Shown here: positions 15,273 through 52,513 of the stretch, piece by piece
How positions within the stretch are numbered: position 1 is the stretch's first letter
Layout: every line of letters starts with the position of its first letter
From: Ignavibacteriota bacterium
GTDB taxonomy: Bacteria > Bacteroidota > Ignavibacteria > Ignavibacteriales > Melioribacteraceae
Reading direction: 5' to 3'
DNA length: 64,000 nucleotides
Assembly (NCBI GenBank): GCA_002698995.1
Contig: PAAX01000014.1
Coordinates: 124,001 to 188,000, forward strand
Translations under genes and position numbers: made by a program
Notes under the pieces: model-generated
What the model was told of the DNA's origin: nothing
Seen by the model: the letters and a program-made list of their open reading frames with translations, nothing else
Database searches by the model: none

Positions 15273-16403
15273 CTATTCTAATCTCTTTTTAAATCTCAAA
15301 GTGCTCATCGTTAAAATAGTAATTCCCATTAAAAATAGTATTGTTAACTGGGGCCACAATTCTGCAAATCCAATTCCCTTTAAAATTACTCCTCTTATAA
15401 TTGTGATAAAATATCTTAGAGGTATTGCATAAGTAATAAGTTGAATTATATCTGGCATATTTTCTATTGGGAATGCAAATCCGGAGAGATAAACCATCGG
15501 CATCATAACAACAAATATAGCAATCATCATAGCCTGCTGCTGAGTTTTAGATATTGTTGATACGAACAAACCCAACCCAAGTGTAGATAGAATAAAAACA
15601 AAACTTGATAAAAATAAAAATAAGAAACTTCCTCTAACAACAATTCCAAAAACTATAAACATTGCTCCCAGAGCCAGAATTATAGATATAATTCCAAGTA
15701 TAAAAAAGGGAACCAGTTTTCCCACTATCAACTGATATGGTTTAATCGGCGTTACAATTAATTGTTCAAGAGTTCCGATTTCTTTTTCTTTTACAACTGC
15801 AAGAGAGGTTAACAATGAAGTTACAATCATTAATAATAATCCAAATATAGCTGGAACCATATAGTTTCTTGTCTTCAGTTCTTGGTTATACCAAAATCTA
15901 GTTTCAATGTTTATGTTGTTTACCGGCTTAAGTTTTAATCCGATTTTTGCAAAGTTCTCTTCCATCATTTTTTGATTGAATCTATTTAGAACATTTTGAA
16001 TATAGCCGGCAGAAATGGATGCTGTATTTCCATCCGATCCATCAAATAATAACTGAACTTCGGCAGTCCTTTTTTGTTCAATCTCTTTTTCAAAATTATT
16101 AGGTATTACTATTGCGCAGATTATCTTTGCTTCATTCAGCAATTCCGTTACTTCATCATAATCTTTTGCTGCATAATCATAATTAAAGATTTCAACTGCG
16201 GTAAAATCTTCAATTAATTTTCTGCTTGTTACACTTTTATCTTGATCATAAAGAGCAATATGAACTTTCTCAACATCCATATTAGCAGCATATCCTAAAA
16301 ATATTAATTGAATGATTGGTGCTACTAATACAATCATCCGCATTTTAGGATCGCGCTTAAACTGAATAAATTCTTTTCTAATTATTTCTAGGATTGTTTT
16401 CAT
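15273..16403 (-). CDS. ABC-2 type efflux permease (YbhR/YhhJ-like), second copy
   Basis: 376 residues: a cytoplasmic N-terminal amphipathic segment (ILEIIRKEFIQFKRDPKMRMIVLVAPIIQLIFLGYAA), a large periplasmic loop of about 150 residues, and five C-terminal membrane helices with the ABC-2 signature VVKEKEIGTLEQLIVTPIKPYQLIVGK. It forms the export channel with an ATPase and a TolC duct. The paralogue at 17230-18363 has the same layout, so the complex is probably a heterodimeric permease. It is separated from its partner gene by a repeat block and GIY-YIG gene. Confidence 0.88.
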   Translation of the reverse strand: MKTILEIIRKEFIQFKRDPKMRMIVLVAPIIQLIFLGYAANMDVEKVHIALYDQDKSVTSRKLIEDFTAVEIFNYDYAAKDYDEVTELLNEAKIICAIVIPNNFEKEIEQKRTAEVQLLFDGSDGNTASISAGYIQNVLNRFNQKMMEENFAKIGLKLKPVNNINIETRFWYNQELKTRNYMVPAIFGLLLMIVTSLLTSLAVVKEKEIGTLEQLIVTPIKPYQLIVGKLVPFFILGIISIILALGAMFIVFGIVVRGSFLFLFLSSFVFILSTLGLGLFVSTISKTQQQAMMIAIFVVMMPMVYLSGFAFPIENMPDIIQLITYAIPLRYFITIIRGVILKGIGFAELWPQLTILFLMGITILTMSTLRFKKRLE

Positions 16404-16437
16404 TATTCTTCTTACACTTTTAATTGCTTTTATTAAT

Positions 16438-16617
16438 GAGATTCCGGCTCTTCATTTCGTTCCGGCCGGAATGACAAGTCCTTCTGTAATGCCGGTTTGT
16501 GAAGCAATACCTGCATCTCAAACATTTCTGCTTTGAGATTCCGGCATTTCACTTTGCTGAAGCCGGAATAACAAGTCCTTCTGTCATGCCGGTTTGCGGA
16601 TCAATACCGGCATCTCA
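16438..16617. repeat. 97-bp palindromic repeat array, left side
   Basis: Two consecutive units start with GAGATTCCGG at 16438 and 16535 (period 97 bp). Each unit holds two imperfect palindromes: GAGATTCCGGC...GCCGGAATRAC and a TGCCGGT...ACCGGCATCTC half. It is more GC-rich than the flanking DNA. It faces a similar array at 16931-17203 on the other side of the GIY-YIG gene. The adjoining 16404-16437 carries no gene. Confidence 0.8.
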
Positions 16618-16627
16618 AATCCTTTAT

Positions 16628-16909
16628 TCATAACTGCTCGTACAAATCATCCCAATAAGGATTTAACCCATTAATCATATTTTCTTTGTATTCACGCTTC
16701 CATTTTTTCATTCTCTTTTCTTGCCTTATTGCTTCCTCAATACTATTAGTTTCTTGAAACCAGACAAGCTTATTGCAGTTGTATGTTTTAGTGAAGCCAT
16801 CAATAATTTTTTCTTTGTGCTCATAAATTCTTCTTTTAAGATTGTTTGTGACTCCGATGTATAGAACCTTGTTGTTTATGTTTGTTAGTATGTAAACGTA
16901 ATAACTCAT
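16628..16909 (-). CDS. Small stand-alone GIY-YIG nuclease domain protein
   Basis: 93 residues from the ATG at 16909. The open frame continues to 17200, but that extra part is translated repeat DNA. The domain is complete: YYVYILTNINNKVLYIGVT supplies the GIY and YIG strands, LKRRIYEHKEK the basic helix, and the C-terminus is basic (KRMKKWKREYKENM). These single-domain UvrC-like proteins are nucleases of unknown role. The gene lies between two arrays of 97-bp palindromic repeats, interrupting an ABC efflux operon, which suggests a mobile unit (inference). A conserved metal-binding Glu could not be assigned with confidence. Confidence 0.85.
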   Translation of the reverse strand: MSYYVYILTNINNKVLYIGVTNNLKRRIYEHKEKIIDGFTKTYNCNKLVWFQETNSIEEAIRQEKRMKKWKREYKENMINGLNPYWDDLYEQL

Positions 16910-16930
16910 TTCTGCTTTTATGTTATTTTT

Positions 16931-17203
16931 GAGATTCCGGTATCCCTTCCAGCATCGCCAAACTTGCGAGGCGAGCGGGAACCGGAATGACTTAATTATT
17001 TCACTCTTTCCTCTGTCGTGCCGGTTTGCAGAGCAATACCGGCATCTCTTACATTTCTTCTTTGAGATTCCGGCATTTCGCTTCGCTGCAGCCGGAATTA
17101 CGCATTCTTCTGTCATGCCGGTTTGCGAAGCAATACCGGCATCTCCTACATTTCTTCTTTGAGATTCCGGCACTTCACTTCGTTTTGGCCGGAATGACAA
17201 GTC
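16931..17203. repeat. 97-bp palindromic repeat array, right side
   Basis: Unit starts (GAGATTCCGG) are at 16931, 17064 and 17161; the last interval is again 97 bp, and the first unit has an extra 36 bp. Palindromic halves are as in the left array (for example GTCATGCCGGTTTGCGAAGC followed by AATACCGGCATCTC). This array fills the space between the GIY-YIG gene and the permease at 17230. Confidence 0.8.
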
Positions 17204-17229
17204 TTTTTGTTTTAAATCAAAGAACTTCT

Positions 17230-18363
17230 CTAATTTCCTAATCTCTTATTGTTTATCACATTAGCTAGAACTAAAAATAAAAGTGCGAATATCATAAGAT
17301 AAACCAACTGCAGCCAGAATACCTCAAAACCTACTCCCCGTAAAATTACTCCCCTTAAAGCAACTATATAAAATTTAGCAGGAGTTATATTCGTCAAGAC
17401 CTGAAGGATTGAAGGCATACTTTCAATTGGGAAAACGAATCCCGATAAAAGGAGCGAAGGAAGCAATGTAGCAAATGTTCCCCCTATAAATGCTACCTGC
17501 TGGCTATCAGAAACTGCTGATATAAATATTCCCAAACTTGTAGAAGCAAAAAGAAAGATGATTGTTGAAATCAAAAGAACCAAATAGCTTCCTTTAACAT
17601 ACACATCAAACAAAATCATTCCCGCAATAAGAATAAACGCAGCATTAATCAAAGCAATAACTAAGTATGGAATTGTTTTCCCAATCAGCAATTCTAATGA
17701 TGTTAACGATGATACATTTATTTGTTCTATTGTTCCTTTCTCTTTTTCTCTAACAAGTGTTAACGAAATTGAAATTGTTGCTGAAACAATTAGTATCATT
17801 GCAATTAATCCCGGAATCAAAAATTTTGTTGACTGCAACTCTGGATTAAACCAAAATCTTGTCTCAATTTTTATTGGAATGTTCTGCTTTATTCCTTTTG
17901 CCTCCAAATGCATCATCTGAATATTACTGTTGTATTTTATAACAGCTCCATTCAAATAATTTCCAATAAGCGATGCGGTGTTGCCGTCAACTCCGTCAAT
18001 CAAAACTTGTAGTGATATATCTTCTTTGTTTCTATAAATCTGTTTTGAAAAATCATTAGGAATTACAATTACTGCCTGTGCATCTTTTTTATCAAGCGTT
18101 GATTTGATTTGAGAATCCATCTCTAAATATTTGATAACCTCAAAATTGTAAGTAGCATTTAATTGATTGATTAATTCTCTGCTTTCTTTCGAATTGTCCA
18201 AATCATAAACAGCGAGCTTTATATTCTCAACATCAAAGTTGACTGCATAACCAAACATTGCAAGTAGAAATGCTGGAAAGAAGAATAAAATGATTAACAT
18301 TCTTTTATCTCTTCCCAATTGCTTAAATTCTTTTTTAGTTATTGCTTTAATTCGATTAATCAT
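17230..18363 (-). CDS. ABC-2 type efflux permease (YbhS-like), first copy
   Basis: 377 residues with the same plan as the 15273 paralogue: RIKAITKKEFKQLGRDKRMLIILFFFPAFLLAMFGYAV at the N-terminus, a periplasmic domain containing NDFSKQIYRNKEDISLQVLIDGVDGNTAS, and the signature LVREKEKGTIEQINVSSLTSLELLIGK before the helix bundle. The start overlaps the stop of the ATPase gene (ATGA), so translation is coupled. It exports a lipophilic or drug-like compound in a TolC-type complex; the substrate is unknown. Confidence 0.9.
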   Translation of the reverse strand: MINRIKAITKKEFKQLGRDKRMLIILFFFPAFLLAMFGYAVNFDVENIKLAVYDLDNSKESRELINQLNATYNFEVIKYLEMDSQIKSTLDKKDAQAVIVIPNDFSKQIYRNKEDISLQVLIDGVDGNTASLIGNYLNGAVIKYNSNIQMMHLEAKGIKQNIPIKIETRFWFNPELQSTKFLIPGLIAMILIVSATISISLTLVREKEKGTIEQINVSSLTSLELLIGKTIPYLVIALINAAFILIAGMILFDVYVKGSYLVLLISTIIFLFASTSLGIFISAVSDSQQVAFIGGTFATLLPSLLLSGFVFPIESMPSILQVLTNITPAKFYIVALRGVILRGVGFEVFWLQLVYLMIFALLFLVLANVINNKRLGN

Positions 18364-26447: not shown

Positions 26448-28886
26448 CTATTTCAACAGCAGCATTTTACGAACTTCAGTAAAACTTCCCGATTGAATTT
26501 TATAGAAATAAACTCCACTGCTTAACCTAGAGGCGTTAAAGCTTACTTCATAATTTCCGGCAGACTTTTGTTCATTAACTAATATCGCAACTTCTCTTCC
26601 GAGAATATCATAGACTTTCAAAGTTACATACTCATTACTCGGTACTGAGTACTCAATACTTGTTGTGGGGTTAAATGGGTTTGGATAATTTTGTGCCAGA
26701 ACAAATTTGTTGCTTGTTAAAACTGATACCGATGGAGGCAGCTCAACTGCTAAAATTCTATCTGTAAAAAGAGTAAAACCCCCTTGTAGGCTTCCATCCA
26801 TAGTTGTGAAGTCTCCTCCCACATAAACATCACCTCCATCTACAGCAACTGAATAAACAATGCCATTTGGATTAGGATTCCAGAGGGCATTTGCGCTGCC
26901 GTCGGTTTTCTTTAGTTTGGCTAAATATTTTCTTGATACTCCCCCGATTAAAGTATACCTTCCTGTTGTATAAATATCACTTCCTTCATTTACTATTAAA
27001 TGGACAAGACCATTAGCATTAGGATTCCAATTTGTATCTAGCCTCCCGTCGTTATTGTCTATTTTAGCGATGTAATTTCTTGAGCCTCCGCCGATTCTTG
27101 TAAATGCTCCTCCTACATAAATTTCACTATTATCTATAGTTATTGAACGAACACCCCCGTTTGCGTTGGGATTCCAGTCAGCATCTGCGCTGCCGTCACT
27201 TTTGTTTAATTTTACTATCTTGTTTCTTGATACGCCACTGATTGTTGTAAAATCGCCTCCTACATAAATATAATTTCCATCAATAACCATTGAATTTATA
27301 AGACCATTTGGATTAGGATCCCAGCTTGTATCTGCGCTTCCATCTCTTTTGTTTAGCTTGGCTATATAATTTCTTTGAGCACCACCGATTGAACGAAATT
27401 CTCCGCCTACATAAATATCACTGTCGTCTATTAAGATTGAACGAACAAAAAAACTCGCATTAGGATTCCAGTTAGCGTCTAAGCTCCCATCATTTTTGTT
27501 TATTTTAGCAATAAAATTTCTTGAGACTCCACCGATTCTTCTAATTGTTCCTCCTACATAAATATCATTTCCATCTGTGGTTATAGAATATATATCACCA
27601 GTCACATTGGGATTCCAGCTTGTGTCTGCGATGCCGTCATTTTTGGTTAGTCTGGCTATACAATTTCTTGAAACTCCACCGAATGTAGTAAAAGTTCCTC
27701 CAACATATATATCACTACCCTTTAGAGAAATTGAATAAACTTGGCCACACGCATTAGGATTCCAGCTTGAATCTGCTCTCCCGTCAATCTTATTAAGTTT
27801 GGCTATACAATTTCTTGAAACATCACTGATTTCTGTAAATTCTCCTCCCACATAAACAGTGCTTTCATCAACAGCTATTGAATAAACATATTTGCTTGCA
27901 TTGGGATTCCAGTTTGCATCTAAGCTCCCTTCATTTTTGTTTATTTTAGCAATATAATTTCTTGAAACTCCACCGATTGAAGTAAAATAACCTCCCACAT
28001 AAATATCGCTACTATCTGCGGAGATTGTATAAACAAAACCATTTGCATTTGCATTCCAACTTACATCTGCATTTCCGTTACTTTTGTTTAGTCTGGCAAT
28101 ATACTTTTTTGATGCACCGCCAATTTCTGTAAAATAACCTCCCACATAAATATCGTCTGCATCCACTGATGCTGAACTAACTGAACCATTTGGAGCAGGA
28201 TTCCAGTTTGTATCTGCTTTCCCGTCACTTTTATTTAATTTCGCTACATACTTTCTTGATGCCCCTCCTATTGTTGAAAAACTTCCAACCACGTAAATTT
28301 CCTCTAAATCTACAGATATTGAGCTAACAGAGCCATTTGGAGCAGGATTCCAATTAATATCAGCAGTACCGTCATTTTTATTTAGTTTGGTTAATTTATT
28401 TATTGAGTGCCCACCAATTGTTGTAAAATCTCCTCCTACATAAATATCATCTCCATCCAAAGCTATTGACCGAACAGGAAAGTTTGAGTTTGGATTCCAG
28501 CCTTCATCCACGCTTCCCGTAAAGTTAATATGTGCTATATTATTTCTATCAAAAATACCTACTTTACTAAACTCTCCTCCTATATACCATCCTCCAGCTC
28601 CATCCGGTGCTGAAGCATAAACTGGACCATTAACTTTTGGAAATGTTTTGTCATAGTTATCATGCGTTGAGGTAAGCTTTACACCATGACCAGTATTTGG
28701 CCCAACATTAGTGAAATTTCCTCCTATATAAATATATTCGCTATCAACCGCCATTGCATATACACGCCCATCTGTAGTCCATATATCAGGGTTCGGAATA
28801 TCGGTTTGAGCAAATCCCACATTAGGAATAAAAAATAAGACCACCCAAATCAATAATGAACACTTTCTTAGTAAATATTTTTTCAT
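26448..28886 (-). CDS. T9SS-secreted protein with tandem WNPNANG-type propeller repeats
   Basis: 812 residues. Signal peptide (residues 1-26, ending VGFAQ). From about residue 36 to 700 there are 14 blade-like repeats, the inner ones 49 residues long, each with the pattern W(N/D)P(N)xxGxVxSIxxDxxxIYVGGxFTxIGGxSRNYIAKLNKxDG. Fourteen suggests two seven-bladed propellers (inference). The C-terminal 80 residues are a type A T9SS sorting domain (QNYPNPFNPTTSIEYS ... GNYEVSFNASRLSSGVYFYKI). It is exported and probably surface-attached, with a likely role in adhesion or polymer binding. Repeats 6 and 7 carry a Cys in SRNCIAK; the family is otherwise unnamed. Confidence 0.85.
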   Translation of the reverse strand: MKKYLLRKCSLLIWVVLFFIPNVGFAQTDIPNPDIWTTDGRVYAMAVDSEYIYIGGNFTNVGPNTGHGVKLTSTHDNYDKTFPKVNGPVYASAPDGAGGWYIGGEFSKVGIFDRNNIAHINFTGSVDEGWNPNSNFPVRSIALDGDDIYVGGDFTTIGGHSINKLTKLNKNDGTADINWNPAPNGSVSSISVDLEEIYVVGSFSTIGGASRKYVAKLNKSDGKADTNWNPAPNGSVSSASVDADDIYVGGYFTEIGGASKKYIARLNKSNGNADVSWNANANGFVYTISADSSDIYVGGYFTSIGGVSRNYIAKINKNEGSLDANWNPNASKYVYSIAVDESTVYVGGEFTEISDVSRNCIAKLNKIDGRADSSWNPNACGQVYSISLKGSDIYVGGTFTTFGGVSRNCIARLTKNDGIADTSWNPNVTGDIYSITTDGNDIYVGGTIRRIGGVSRNFIAKINKNDGSLDANWNPNASFFVRSILIDDSDIYVGGEFRSIGGAQRNYIAKLNKRDGSADTSWDPNPNGLINSMVIDGNYIYVGGDFTTISGVSRNKIVKLNKSDGSADADWNPNANGGVRSITIDNSEIYVGGAFTRIGGGSRNYIAKIDNNDGRLDTNWNPNANGLVHLIVNEGSDIYTTGRYTLIGGVSRKYLAKLKKTDGSANALWNPNPNGIVYSVAVDGGDVYVGGDFTTMDGSLQGGFTLFTDRILAVELPPSVSVLTSNKFVLAQNYPNPFNPTTSIEYSVPSNEYVTLKVYDILGREVAILVNEQKSAGNYEVSFNASRLSSGVYFYKIQSGSFTEVRKMLLLK

Positions 28887-29037: not shown

Positions 29038-29128
29038 TTGTCTTTTCGAGGAAACGAAGTGGACGAGAAATCTTATCAAACAATGGAAAAGATTTCTCTC
29101 ATTCGCTTCGCTCAGTTCGAAATGACAA
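29038..29128. repeat. Inverted pair of short 'GTCATTTCGAAC' elements
   Basis: TTGTCTTTTCGAGGAAACGAAG...GAGAAATCTT (29038-29074) and AAGATTTCTCTC...TCAGTTCGAAATGACAA (29089-29128) face each other. Both resemble the GTCATTYCG elements found elsewhere in the window but belong to a different subtype. The surrounding 28887-29174 contains no gene. Confidence 0.5.
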
Positions 29129-50533: not shown

Positions 50534-52513
50534 ATGATTGAGAATGGAATAAAAAATGAGTTTGTCATTCCGGGTTTTGATTTATCGAAATACCGGAATC
50601 TAAAGAACTACAATCTGCTTAATCTAATAAGATTCAAGAATTCGCTTCGTTCAGTTGGAATGACTTGTCTAATTTTAGTAATAAGTTTTGTACTTCTTTT
50701 AAGTTCTACAAATGCACAAGATCAGAATCTCCTTAATAAATTTAGATTGGCTCAAAGTTACGAACAGGCAAATCAACTTGAAAAAGCTAAAGAACTTTAC
50801 ACTGAGATTTATAATCTTCAACCAAATAACAATCAGTTTGTTGAGGCATTGAATCGAGTTTATGTCAGATTAAAAGAATATGATAATTCAATTTCCCTTT
50901 TAACCACTTCAATCAATAGAAATCCTCAGGATGTTTTAAAATTTGGTATGCTTGGTTCAACATATTATTTGATGGATAACAGCCAAAAAGCATTTGATGC
51001 TTGGGAAGAAGGATTGAAAGCAATTCCGAATTCAGTTGTTACTTATAGAGTTATTGCAAATTATGCTATTGAAAATCGCGCTTTTGATAAAGCAATTGAA
51101 ATTCTTCAAGAAGGAAAAAAGATTAATAATGATCCCAGAATTTTCTCTTATGATTTGGCTAATCTTTATTCAATTACAATGAATTTTGAAGGAGCTGTAA
51201 AAGAATATGCCGATTTATTGGATCAAGATCCAAATCAGCTTGCAGTAATAAAAAACAGAATGGCTCAATATTTAAACAGACCGGGAGCAGTTTCACAAAC
51301 TGCAGAAGCGCTTAAATCCATAATTGAGGGCGAGCCCAAATCAATTTTATATGATCTTCTGAGTTATACATATATTCAAGGAAGTGATTATAAAAATGCT
51401 CTCGAAGTTTTAATTGAAGCAGATAAAAAATATATAAAGAACGGCTCTGCCGTTTTTAATCTTGCCGAAGCATCTCTTAATGACAATCAAATTGAAATTT
51501 CCGTAAAAGCATTTAATTATGTTTTGGAAAATTATCCCAACTCTCCATTTGCATTAGCTGCTAAAATTGGATTTGCGAAAGCAGAAGAAGCTAGATTAGA
51601 AAACACTCTAATTAATAATAATTCTTGGAAACCTTATTCTGTAAATAATTACACAAATAAAGATAGTTACCAAAAAATAGTAAGAATATACGAATCGTTT
51701 ATTGAGAGTGAGTCGGTAAGAAACCCTTATTATTTTGAAGCTTTATACCGAATTGCTTTCATTGAAAAGCACAAGTTAAATAATATTGAGAAAGCTGATA
51801 GTCTCTTTTCTTTAATTACAGAAAGAGCTCCGGTTTCCGAATATGGCAGCAATTCTTATTTAGAACTTGGAGATTTGTTTATTTTAAAAAATGAGTTAGA
51901 AATTGCAGAAGAACTCTTGCAAAAGGGATTGAATCTATACAGAATAACTCCCAATCAGCAGAATTTATTTAGATATAAATTAGCAAAAGTATACTTCTGG
52001 AAAGGTGAATTTGATAATTCACTAAAACATCTTGCAGAGATAACAAAAGATTTAAAGGACAATACAGCTAATGATGCGCTTCAATTAAGTTTTATAATAA
52101 ATATCGGGAAAAAAGATTCAGTAAGTTTAGTGAAGTATGCTGAAGCTGATCATTTTGCAGAGCAGGGAAAATTCAATCTTGCAGCAGATAATTTCAGACT
52201 GTTAAGTCAAAATGAAAATCTGCTTATACTTAATGATATTTCCAAATTAAAATATGCCGAAATGCTTGCTGCCTTAGATTATTTTCCTGAAACTGTGAAG
52301 ATTCTGGAAGAAATTGTAAATTTAAAAACTAGAAATATATTCTCTGATAAATCATTATACTTTTTGGGGGAAGTTTACGAATTTGGATTGAAAGATTTAA
52401 ATTCAGCTAAGTCTATTTATCAAAAACTTCTTGAAAATTACCCAAACTCAATTTATTTTGAAAGTTGCAGAGAAAAACTCAATGAATTAACAACAAATAA
52501 AAGTAATACATAA
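50534..52513 (+). CDS. TPR protein with repeat-derived N-terminal region
   Basis: About 659 residues from the ATG at 50534; alternative ATGs are at 50492, 50519 and 50660. The part from 50660 ([20 protein letters not shown]) is a signal-like helix; the preceding 42 residues are encoded by a palindromic repeat (50564-50664). Then about 12 tetratricopeptide repeats (for example [23 protein letters not shown]). Secreted or periplasmic scaffold protein. The stop overlaps the clpX start (ATAATGAGC), so the two are coupled. Confidence 0.7.
50564..50664. repeat. Inverted repeat element inside a coding sequence
   Basis: GTCATTCCGGG at 50564 and TTGGAATGAC near 50655-50664 face each other, about 100 bp apart, like the elements at 10891, 16438, 16931 and 29038. 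The reading frame of the TPR gene passes through it, and the final AATGAC contains the ATG at 50660. Confidence 0.75.

Follow-up and report, generated by a model that had tools for sequence, protein, structure and literature searches.

The 64,000-nucleotide stretch of DNA analysed here (the window) contains at 16628-16909, on the reverse strand, a complete open reading frame coding for a GIY-YIG nuclease of 93 residues, set among nine hairpin elements that occupy 16438-17199 and alternate in orientation when read at the base level. On the same strand lie two ABC-2 permease genes, the upstream partner of an interrupted operon at 17230-18363 and the downstream partner at 15273-16403, both of which are whole. 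The gap between them, holding the nuclease gene and its hairpins, measures 829 bp from aligned end to aligned end.

The nuclease gene and its hairpins in a permease operon

The predicted protein belongs to the GIY-YIG superfamily, matching PF01541 with an E-value of 9.6e-19 and 67.9 bits against a cut-off of 22.6. The catalytic residues Y6, Y17, R27 and E64 are invariant across 60 aligned sequences. An AlphaFold model (pLDDT 97.2) predicts one compact domain in which residues 69-71, here K69, W70 and K71, form the turn joining the Glu64 helix to the next helix. UPF0213/YhbQ-like GIY-YIG proteins have the same fold, and the best solved relative, 1zg2 (UPF0213 protein BH0048), is 30% identical to the window protein in the Foldseek alignment. 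Weak similarity to TIGR01453 (23.7 bits) and phage GIY-YIG homing families raises the alternative that the protein is a free-standing, group I intron-type homing endonuclease, which would home into a fixed double-stranded site. However, the TIGR01453 score falls below the cut-off of 56.05, the protein is modelled as a single compact domain, the sites differ between genomes and the flanking permeases are intact, and we regard this alternative as very improbable. A phage origin was rejected because a search of 50,697 phage records at E 1e-5 gave no match, as was a defence system, for which all PADLOC matches were weak (the best being 17.8 bits to UzuA).

The same permease gap spans 7-120 bp in 25 of the 27 loci of relatives that have both permeases, and 320 and 491 bp in the remaining two, each with a different insert (three further loci were unusable or belong to a different operon, and two duplicate genomes G002 and G019). 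The block thus separates permeases that normally adjoin, as the first-pass annotation had it, and the relatives provide the empty site that it proposed to look for. A small, different open reading frame, presumably of the four-helix-bundle type, fills the gap in G019 (loci L133/L165) and in G002 (L137/L164); the gap is perhaps a hot spot for insertion.

The hairpins have the general form TGTC-[AT..stem-loop..AT]-CT, and are referred to here as GTC-tagged hairpins. Those of the window consist of TGTC or a close variant, a stem starting with AT, a loop of 12-16 nt or more, a stem ending in AT, and a CTC tail, and two stem types, ATTCCGGC and ATGCCGGT, occur at the locus. A strict rule fits four of the nine elements, covariance model R1 finds seven, two of these weakly, and the other two, missed by both rule and model, were added from repeat family D2. 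On the 3' side of the gene the outer left element (16438-16476, reverse strand, stem ATTCCGGC; rule and model) is followed by a degenerate hairpin with GTAATG on its tag side (16483-16519, forward strand; family D2 and base-level reading), one whose tag is altered to GTTAT (16535-16573, reverse; model) and, nearest the gene, one with the ATGCCGGT stem (16582-16616, forward; rule and model). The nearest element on the 5' side is a long-loop hairpin (16931-16992, reverse; weak model match of 18.1 bits and base-level reading), beyond which lie a GTCGTG variant (17012-17048, forward; family D2 and base-level reading), a GTAAT variant (17064-17102, reverse; weak model match of 17.3 bits and repeat spacing analysis), a second ATGCCGGT hairpin (17111-17145, forward; rule and model) and the outer right ATTCCGGC hairpin (17161-17199, reverse; rule and model). 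The two elements nearest the gene form an inverted pair with their GTC tags pointing outward.

The 97-bp period that had been noticed in these arrays corresponds to an inverted hairpin pair plus a spacer of about 15 bp. Direct repeats with a spacing of 97 are present on either side of the nuclease gene, confirming that it is enclosed by arrays of this period; Tandem Repeats Finder reports 1.9 copies of period 97 with 83% matches at 16437-16619, and on the other side a single row, of period 47, across 17007-17158. A known RNA family was rejected, as no Rfam match was found in 16000-17700 up to an E-value of 0.5.

Similar elements had also been described as scattered through the window, which proved true in part: there are two good solitary ones, at 29091-29126 (reverse strand, TTCGA type, as at the paralogue on contig C9; rule) and at 50564-50600 (forward strand, TCCGG type; rule and model), and two further rule matches, at 1331 and 4493, look like chance. 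A separate tandem array of 147-bp units, in 11.3 copies, is present at 26812-28469. In the source genome as a whole the elements cluster at nuclease genes: a 400-kb sample yields just three elements with a G+C-bearing stem, and the three genes of the clade have four, four and three rule-fitting elements within 500 bp. The covariance model gives 10-11 matches in this genome among just 38 candidates scored.

Hairpins beside homologues

A first set of 103 loci comprises the best 80 of 570 homologues in named genomes, 20 from relatives and the three of the source genome; the queries were these three paralogues, and taking the best 80 favours close homologues. After omission of four of the 103 loci with less than 200 bp on one side, a GTCAT-hairpin lies within 500 bp of the gene at 91 of 99 loci, drawn from many phyla, and on both sides at 64. 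At control positions in the same loci the counts are 68 of 1000, and 4 of 1000 for both sides; these positions were random and hence mostly coding, and other small GIY-YIG genes of the source genome and its relatives are a better-matched control. Among 59 stretches with such genes, representing 46 loci and including some pairs that are fragments of one gene, only four have a hairpin within 400 bp, and two of these four are a single gene (L119), with L121 appearing to be a broken member of the clade. In a validation set, mostly from Bacteroidota, hairpins are found at 63 of 85 loci and on both sides at 49 (two of 87 having been dropped for short flanks). Near-identical loci were kept in the counts for the first set, and in the shared-repeat comparison and hairpin scans below.

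The association also appears when the form of the element is not prescribed. Repeats common to the upstream and downstream 500 bp (score of at least 40) occur at 42 of 76 loci, four of 80 being omitted for short flanks, compared with 6 of 443 controls. Perfect hairpins, whatever their foot, reach a density of 2.46 per kb near homologues versus 0.37 per kb in controls; a GTC foot is present in 125 of 398, the next most frequent being TGG with 39. T or C precedes GTC in 568 of 608 elements of the two sets combined, and of the 197 elements detected when the start of the stem was left free, 185 have a stem beginning with AT. The nearest pair is inverted with GTC outward at 43 of 64 loci in the first set, an arrangement that is weaker in the validation set (22 of 49). 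Rule-fitting elements are missing from 8 of 99 and 22 of 85 loci, respectively, and three of the former eight, all Elusimicrobia, have an element with a different tail.

A chance origin of the repeats is ruled out by the shared-repeat counts and by the 91 of 99 loci against 68 of 1000 controls. Two checks had been proposed at the outset, whether homologues have flanking repeats and whether the repeats are equally common elsewhere. Repeats of the same class do accompany most homologues in both sets, and they are far from equally common at random positions, at other GIY-YIG genes or at the Y1 transposase loci considered below. The nuclease-hairpin association is real, and more general than was first supposed.

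The association extends to whole genomes. Of 198 Bacteroidota genomes surveyed, 82 have the nuclease clade and 75 have matches to the hairpin model, the same 75 being recovered with a rebuilt covariance model. Both occur in 57, the gene only in 25, the repeat only in 18 and neither in 98, an odds ratio of 12.4 that treats related genomes as independent; put otherwise, 25 of 82 gene-positive genomes have no repeat match and 18 of 116 gene-negative genomes have repeats. The number of candidates scored per genome was about 38, so that repeat counts for individual genomes are lower bounds. Of genomes with at least 20 model matches, 28 of 30 have the nuclease clade; G066 and G215 are the exceptions, and G066 has a more distant GIY-YIG gene (E 1.2e-20). 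The pair counts of models R1 and R2 prove nothing, because the elements were chosen for pairing.

Related subfamilies have neighbourhoods of their own. A tRNA gene is nearby in 21 of the 59 outgroup GIY-YIG stretches versus 1 of 103 loci within the clade, and a sister subfamily adjoins tRNA genes both in the source genome (L012, L014, L015, L017 and L021) and elsewhere (L309, L312, L313, L314, L316 and L317); these genes are often in tandem, each with a partial tRNA copy, as if inserting and sparing the tRNA. A second sister subfamily, of the YILKCSD/YILECSD type (L301, L304, L308, L310 and L320), has other flanking repeats, several of which have a common TTCGA..CTCA core with a variable outer stem. 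At loci L048, L056, L073, L091, G016 and G025 the proteins end in sequences such as DAETSSA and DPETSSG that look like a translated downstream hairpin; gene and repeat overlap at these loci, because the ATGAC of the hairpin supplies the stop codon. GIY-YIG frames of 534-598 residues at L030, L071 and L078 continue into IPAFAGM-type peptides resembling translated repeats. A homologue on plasmid p1 of Planktothrix agardhii (L292) has a type IIL restriction enzyme gene on one side and drmA, a DISARM gene, on the other.

Residues 69-71 and the inner stem

Differences between proteins were compared with differences between stems at 159 distinct loci by partial Mantel correlation, with correction for the rest of the protein, a procedure that ignores part of the phylogenetic dependence; near-identical loci (at least 95%) were removed for this and for the held-out tests. 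The correlation peaks at residues 64-69 (0.25) and 67-72 (0.235), with the best segment outside the 64-72 region, residues 7-12, reaching 0.112. Residues 69, 70, 71 and 74 together give 0.271, compared with a maximum of 0.193 in 300 random sets of four variable columns; these residues were picked on the first set and scored on the combined set, and prediction of held-out loci is the clean test.

The identities of residues 69-71 correspond to particular inner stems: NWH to CTGA at 21 of 23 loci, AGS or GGS to GCGA at 16 of 18, KWR to TCGA or CCGA at 14 of 17, and KWN to CCC stems at 11 of 12. When a rule learnt from 89 loci was applied to 56 held-out loci, it gave the four inner stem bases without error in 40 of them, where 9.5 are expected, and none of 5000 permutations did as well; the most similar protein, compared without the residue segment, is correct at 21 of 56. 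Fourteen of 70 held-out loci were left out of this count as their residue triple is absent from the learning set, and the held-out set shares some genomes with the first. The rule fails at 16 of 56 loci, and for the window protein KWK points to CCTG where the actual stem is CCGG.

Paralogues within one genome provide a further comparison. When stems were swapped among 15 pairs from 11 genomes, a gene's own stem fitted better in 14 pairs, the swapped stem in none, and one pair tied; residues and stems both differ in these pairs, and G000 and G214 contribute three pairs each. The window gene, whose hairpins are of the TCCGG/GCCGG type, is among those included; its two paralogues, located on contigs C17 and C9, have CCCG and TTCGA hairpins, and the three genes carry KWK, KWN and KWR at residues 69-71. 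Preference for a gene's own stem within a single genome means that host background alone is insufficient as an explanation. The covariation is most simply explained if the protein recognises the hairpin directly and, judging from these sequence comparisons, the protein very probably binds it.

These data also bear on the alternative that the repeats are terminators or mRNA hairpins which, like small selfish genes, simply collect in permissive intergenic sites. Such a shared neighbourhood would agree with the position of the repeats between operon genes and with another small gene occupying the same permease gap in two relatives. However, hairpins are rare at other small GIY-YIG genes, and three residues predict the stem even between paralogues of one genome, such that we give this alternative hardly any weight; terminators or passengers were rejected on the control stretches and the swap outcome of 14 of 15.

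Known repeat systems, spread and proposed mechanism

The closest known elements are the CGTC-tagged REPs, reported in 2013 from five phyla (Di Nocera et al., PMC3733652). They are defined there by an unpaired CGTC, TGTC or CCTC tag and by AT as the first and last bases of the stem; the published families have 4-5 nt loops, others being allowed in some, and CCA tails, and Neisseria dRS3 is counted among them. The window elements agree with this description (PMC3733652) in their unpaired TGTC tag, AT..AT stem, inverted dimers and intergenic dispersal, but their loops are longer (12-16 nt or more) and their tails read CTC. They differ also in having a GIY-YIG gene as a regular companion, whereas the CGTC REPs are reported to be apparently without a dedicated transposase (PMC3733652).

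The nearest approach to the published form is seen beside alphaproteobacterial homologues, several of which are flanked by exact CGTC..CCA elements. In Rhizobium sp. CIAT894, CGTCATCCCAGGGCTTGACCCTGGGATCCA precedes the gene by 22 bp and recurs in inverted orientation 33 bp beyond it. Short loops and CCA tails characterise the elements next to the L294, L295, L297 and L298 genes. The homologues of S. meliloti (L293) and Spirosoma (L296) have rule-fitting elements on their upstream side only. A homologue in N. gonorrhoeae (NZ_CP119140; 45.6% identity over 97%) is flanked on both sides by the dRS3-type sequence CGTCATTCCCGC..GCGGGAATC, and the KWN triple of this protein agrees with its CCCG stem under the residue rule. 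The records NZ_CP119140.1 (N. gonorrhoeae, 2.17 Mb) and NZ_AP026896.1 (Aeromonas caviae, 4.94 Mb) are labelled as plasmids and look like whole chromosomes.

A Neisseria family named Ssn was reportedly described in 2025 as site-specific single-stranded nucleases that act on NTS repeats and affect transformation. We presume that the gonococcal homologue is the published Ssn and that the window protein belongs to the same family. Ssn, too, is a small GIY-YIG protein of a single domain that has a dispersed repeat as its cognate element, but the window stem is CCGG and the source genome has few copies away from the gene. In view of Ssn, the statement in the first-pass annotation that no such system was known would be out of date. 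Among the papers searched we found none joining GIY-YIG nucleases with REPs; one, PMC9465073, names both a RAYT and a GIY-YIG gene, listed separately and with no link between them.

The units also resemble the REPtrons formed by RAYT transposases and GTAG REPs, in which a small nuclease gene likewise lies between inverted tagged hairpins with more copies dispersed (PMC3733652), and the analogy drawn with REP elements and RAYTs at the outset fits closely. The enzymes differ, RAYT being a Y1 HUH enzyme serving a GTAG tag, in contrast to the GIY-YIG protein and GTC tag found here. One could suppose instead that Y1 transposases of the RAYT type move the present repeats and that the GIY-YIG gene either travels as a passenger or supplies a resolving nuclease, given that GTAG REPs are linked to Y1 transposases (PMC3733652) and that the source genome has four Y1 matches. 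A GTC-hairpin is found within 700 bp at none of these four Y1 loci, however, on which basis we rejected Y1/RAYT as the partner; the Y1 genes reported from CGTC-positive species all lack flanking CGTC repeats (PMC3733652), and the covariation with GIY-YIG residues would be left unexplained. We consider this arrangement very unlikely.

We consider it likely that the block is a unit of a nuclease and its cognate repeats, in which a sequence-specific nuclease of GTC-tagged REPs parallels the RAYT-REP system with a different chemistry. In such a unit, conserved parts of the protein would read the constant feet of the hairpin (GTC-AT ... AT-C), and the turn formed by residues 69-71, together with residue 74 and beside the catalytic Glu64, would read the inner stem bases. 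The nuclease would then most likely nick the tagged foot of the hairpin in single-stranded DNA, as formed in replication or DNA uptake; by analogy with what is reported for Ssn, cutting of single strands is probable. Cutting would allow the gene and its repeats to be copied together, to undergo gene conversion or to insert between genes, and here the unit would have inserted into an ABC-transporter operon, in a role like that proposed for RAYT transposases at GTAG REPs.

Several loci bear on the spread of the unit. In the relative G001 the nuclease gene is in a different ABC operon, before a permease and after what looks to be an ABC ATPase gene. In Azospirillum lipoferum 4B it lies between sufB and sufC, which are without it in A. 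ramasamyi, A. oryzae and Azospirillum sp. B510 (93.7-94.7% identity). G015 contains two copies of the gene 6.4 kb apart whose identity begins within the upstream hairpin, runs through the gene and stops a little beyond the outer limit of the downstream hairpin, after which they diverge, a duplication bounded by the repeats. From such sequence comparisons the nuclease-hairpin block looks like an insertion, and absence in relatives could be loss instead of an empty site. Neither a target-site duplication nor an exact junction was readable at the empty sites, because the intergenic DNA is not conserved, and at an empty site in Shinella, of about 82% identity, nothing aligned across the gap. Two equal-scoring copies in G214 did not align to each other at the DNA level, flanks included, and two in G154, the same over at least 2.8 kb and near opposite ends of one contig, may be a contig end overlap and were therefore not used. 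The empty sites and the one repeat-bounded duplication suggest active mobilisation of the unit, a speculative step to which we give somewhat less than an even chance. The earlier proposal that the nuclease mobilises or maintains the repeats thus holds as to the link between them, and the traces of movement are these empty sites and this duplication, with no transposition seen.

A tenable, if not the favoured, alternative is that recognition serves the host, with the nuclease directing DNA uptake or recombination by cutting single strands at the repeats, and with gene and repeats kept together solely because the gene is regulated or bounded by its own target. Steering of DNA uptake is what Ssn reportedly does in Neisseria, and the dRS3 elements on both sides of the N. 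gonorrhoeae homologue are in keeping with it, as are the distribution of the family across phyla and its conserved catalytic residues. The source genome encodes a ComEC-type protein as well, but since 10 of 14 control genomes likewise have ComEC, its presence says little. Against a host function are the patchy presence of the gene among the 198 genomes, the multiple paralogues of single genomes, which each have a stem type of their own, and the different operons occupied in relatives together with the repeat-bounded duplication, all of which look like the spread of a unit.

Returning to the unit of nuclease and cognate repeats, we see about even chances for a broader interpretation, in which small GIY-YIG nucleases would be the missing enzymes of the CGTC REPs, with a three-residue code (NWH-CTGA, A/GGS-GCGA, KWR-TCGA/CCGA and KWN-CCC), and would form a superfamily of minimal nuclease-hairpin selfish units, other branches of which take tRNA genes or other repeats. 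The family itself has reportedly been described, and it is the tie to the CGTC REPs and the residue code that make an open question testable. If the nuclease is the enzyme of the CGTC REPs, the origin and spread of these repeats could be tested with a 93-residue protein and short oligonucleotides, and a three-residue specificity rule, if true, would provide single-strand-specific nucleases with selectable specificity.
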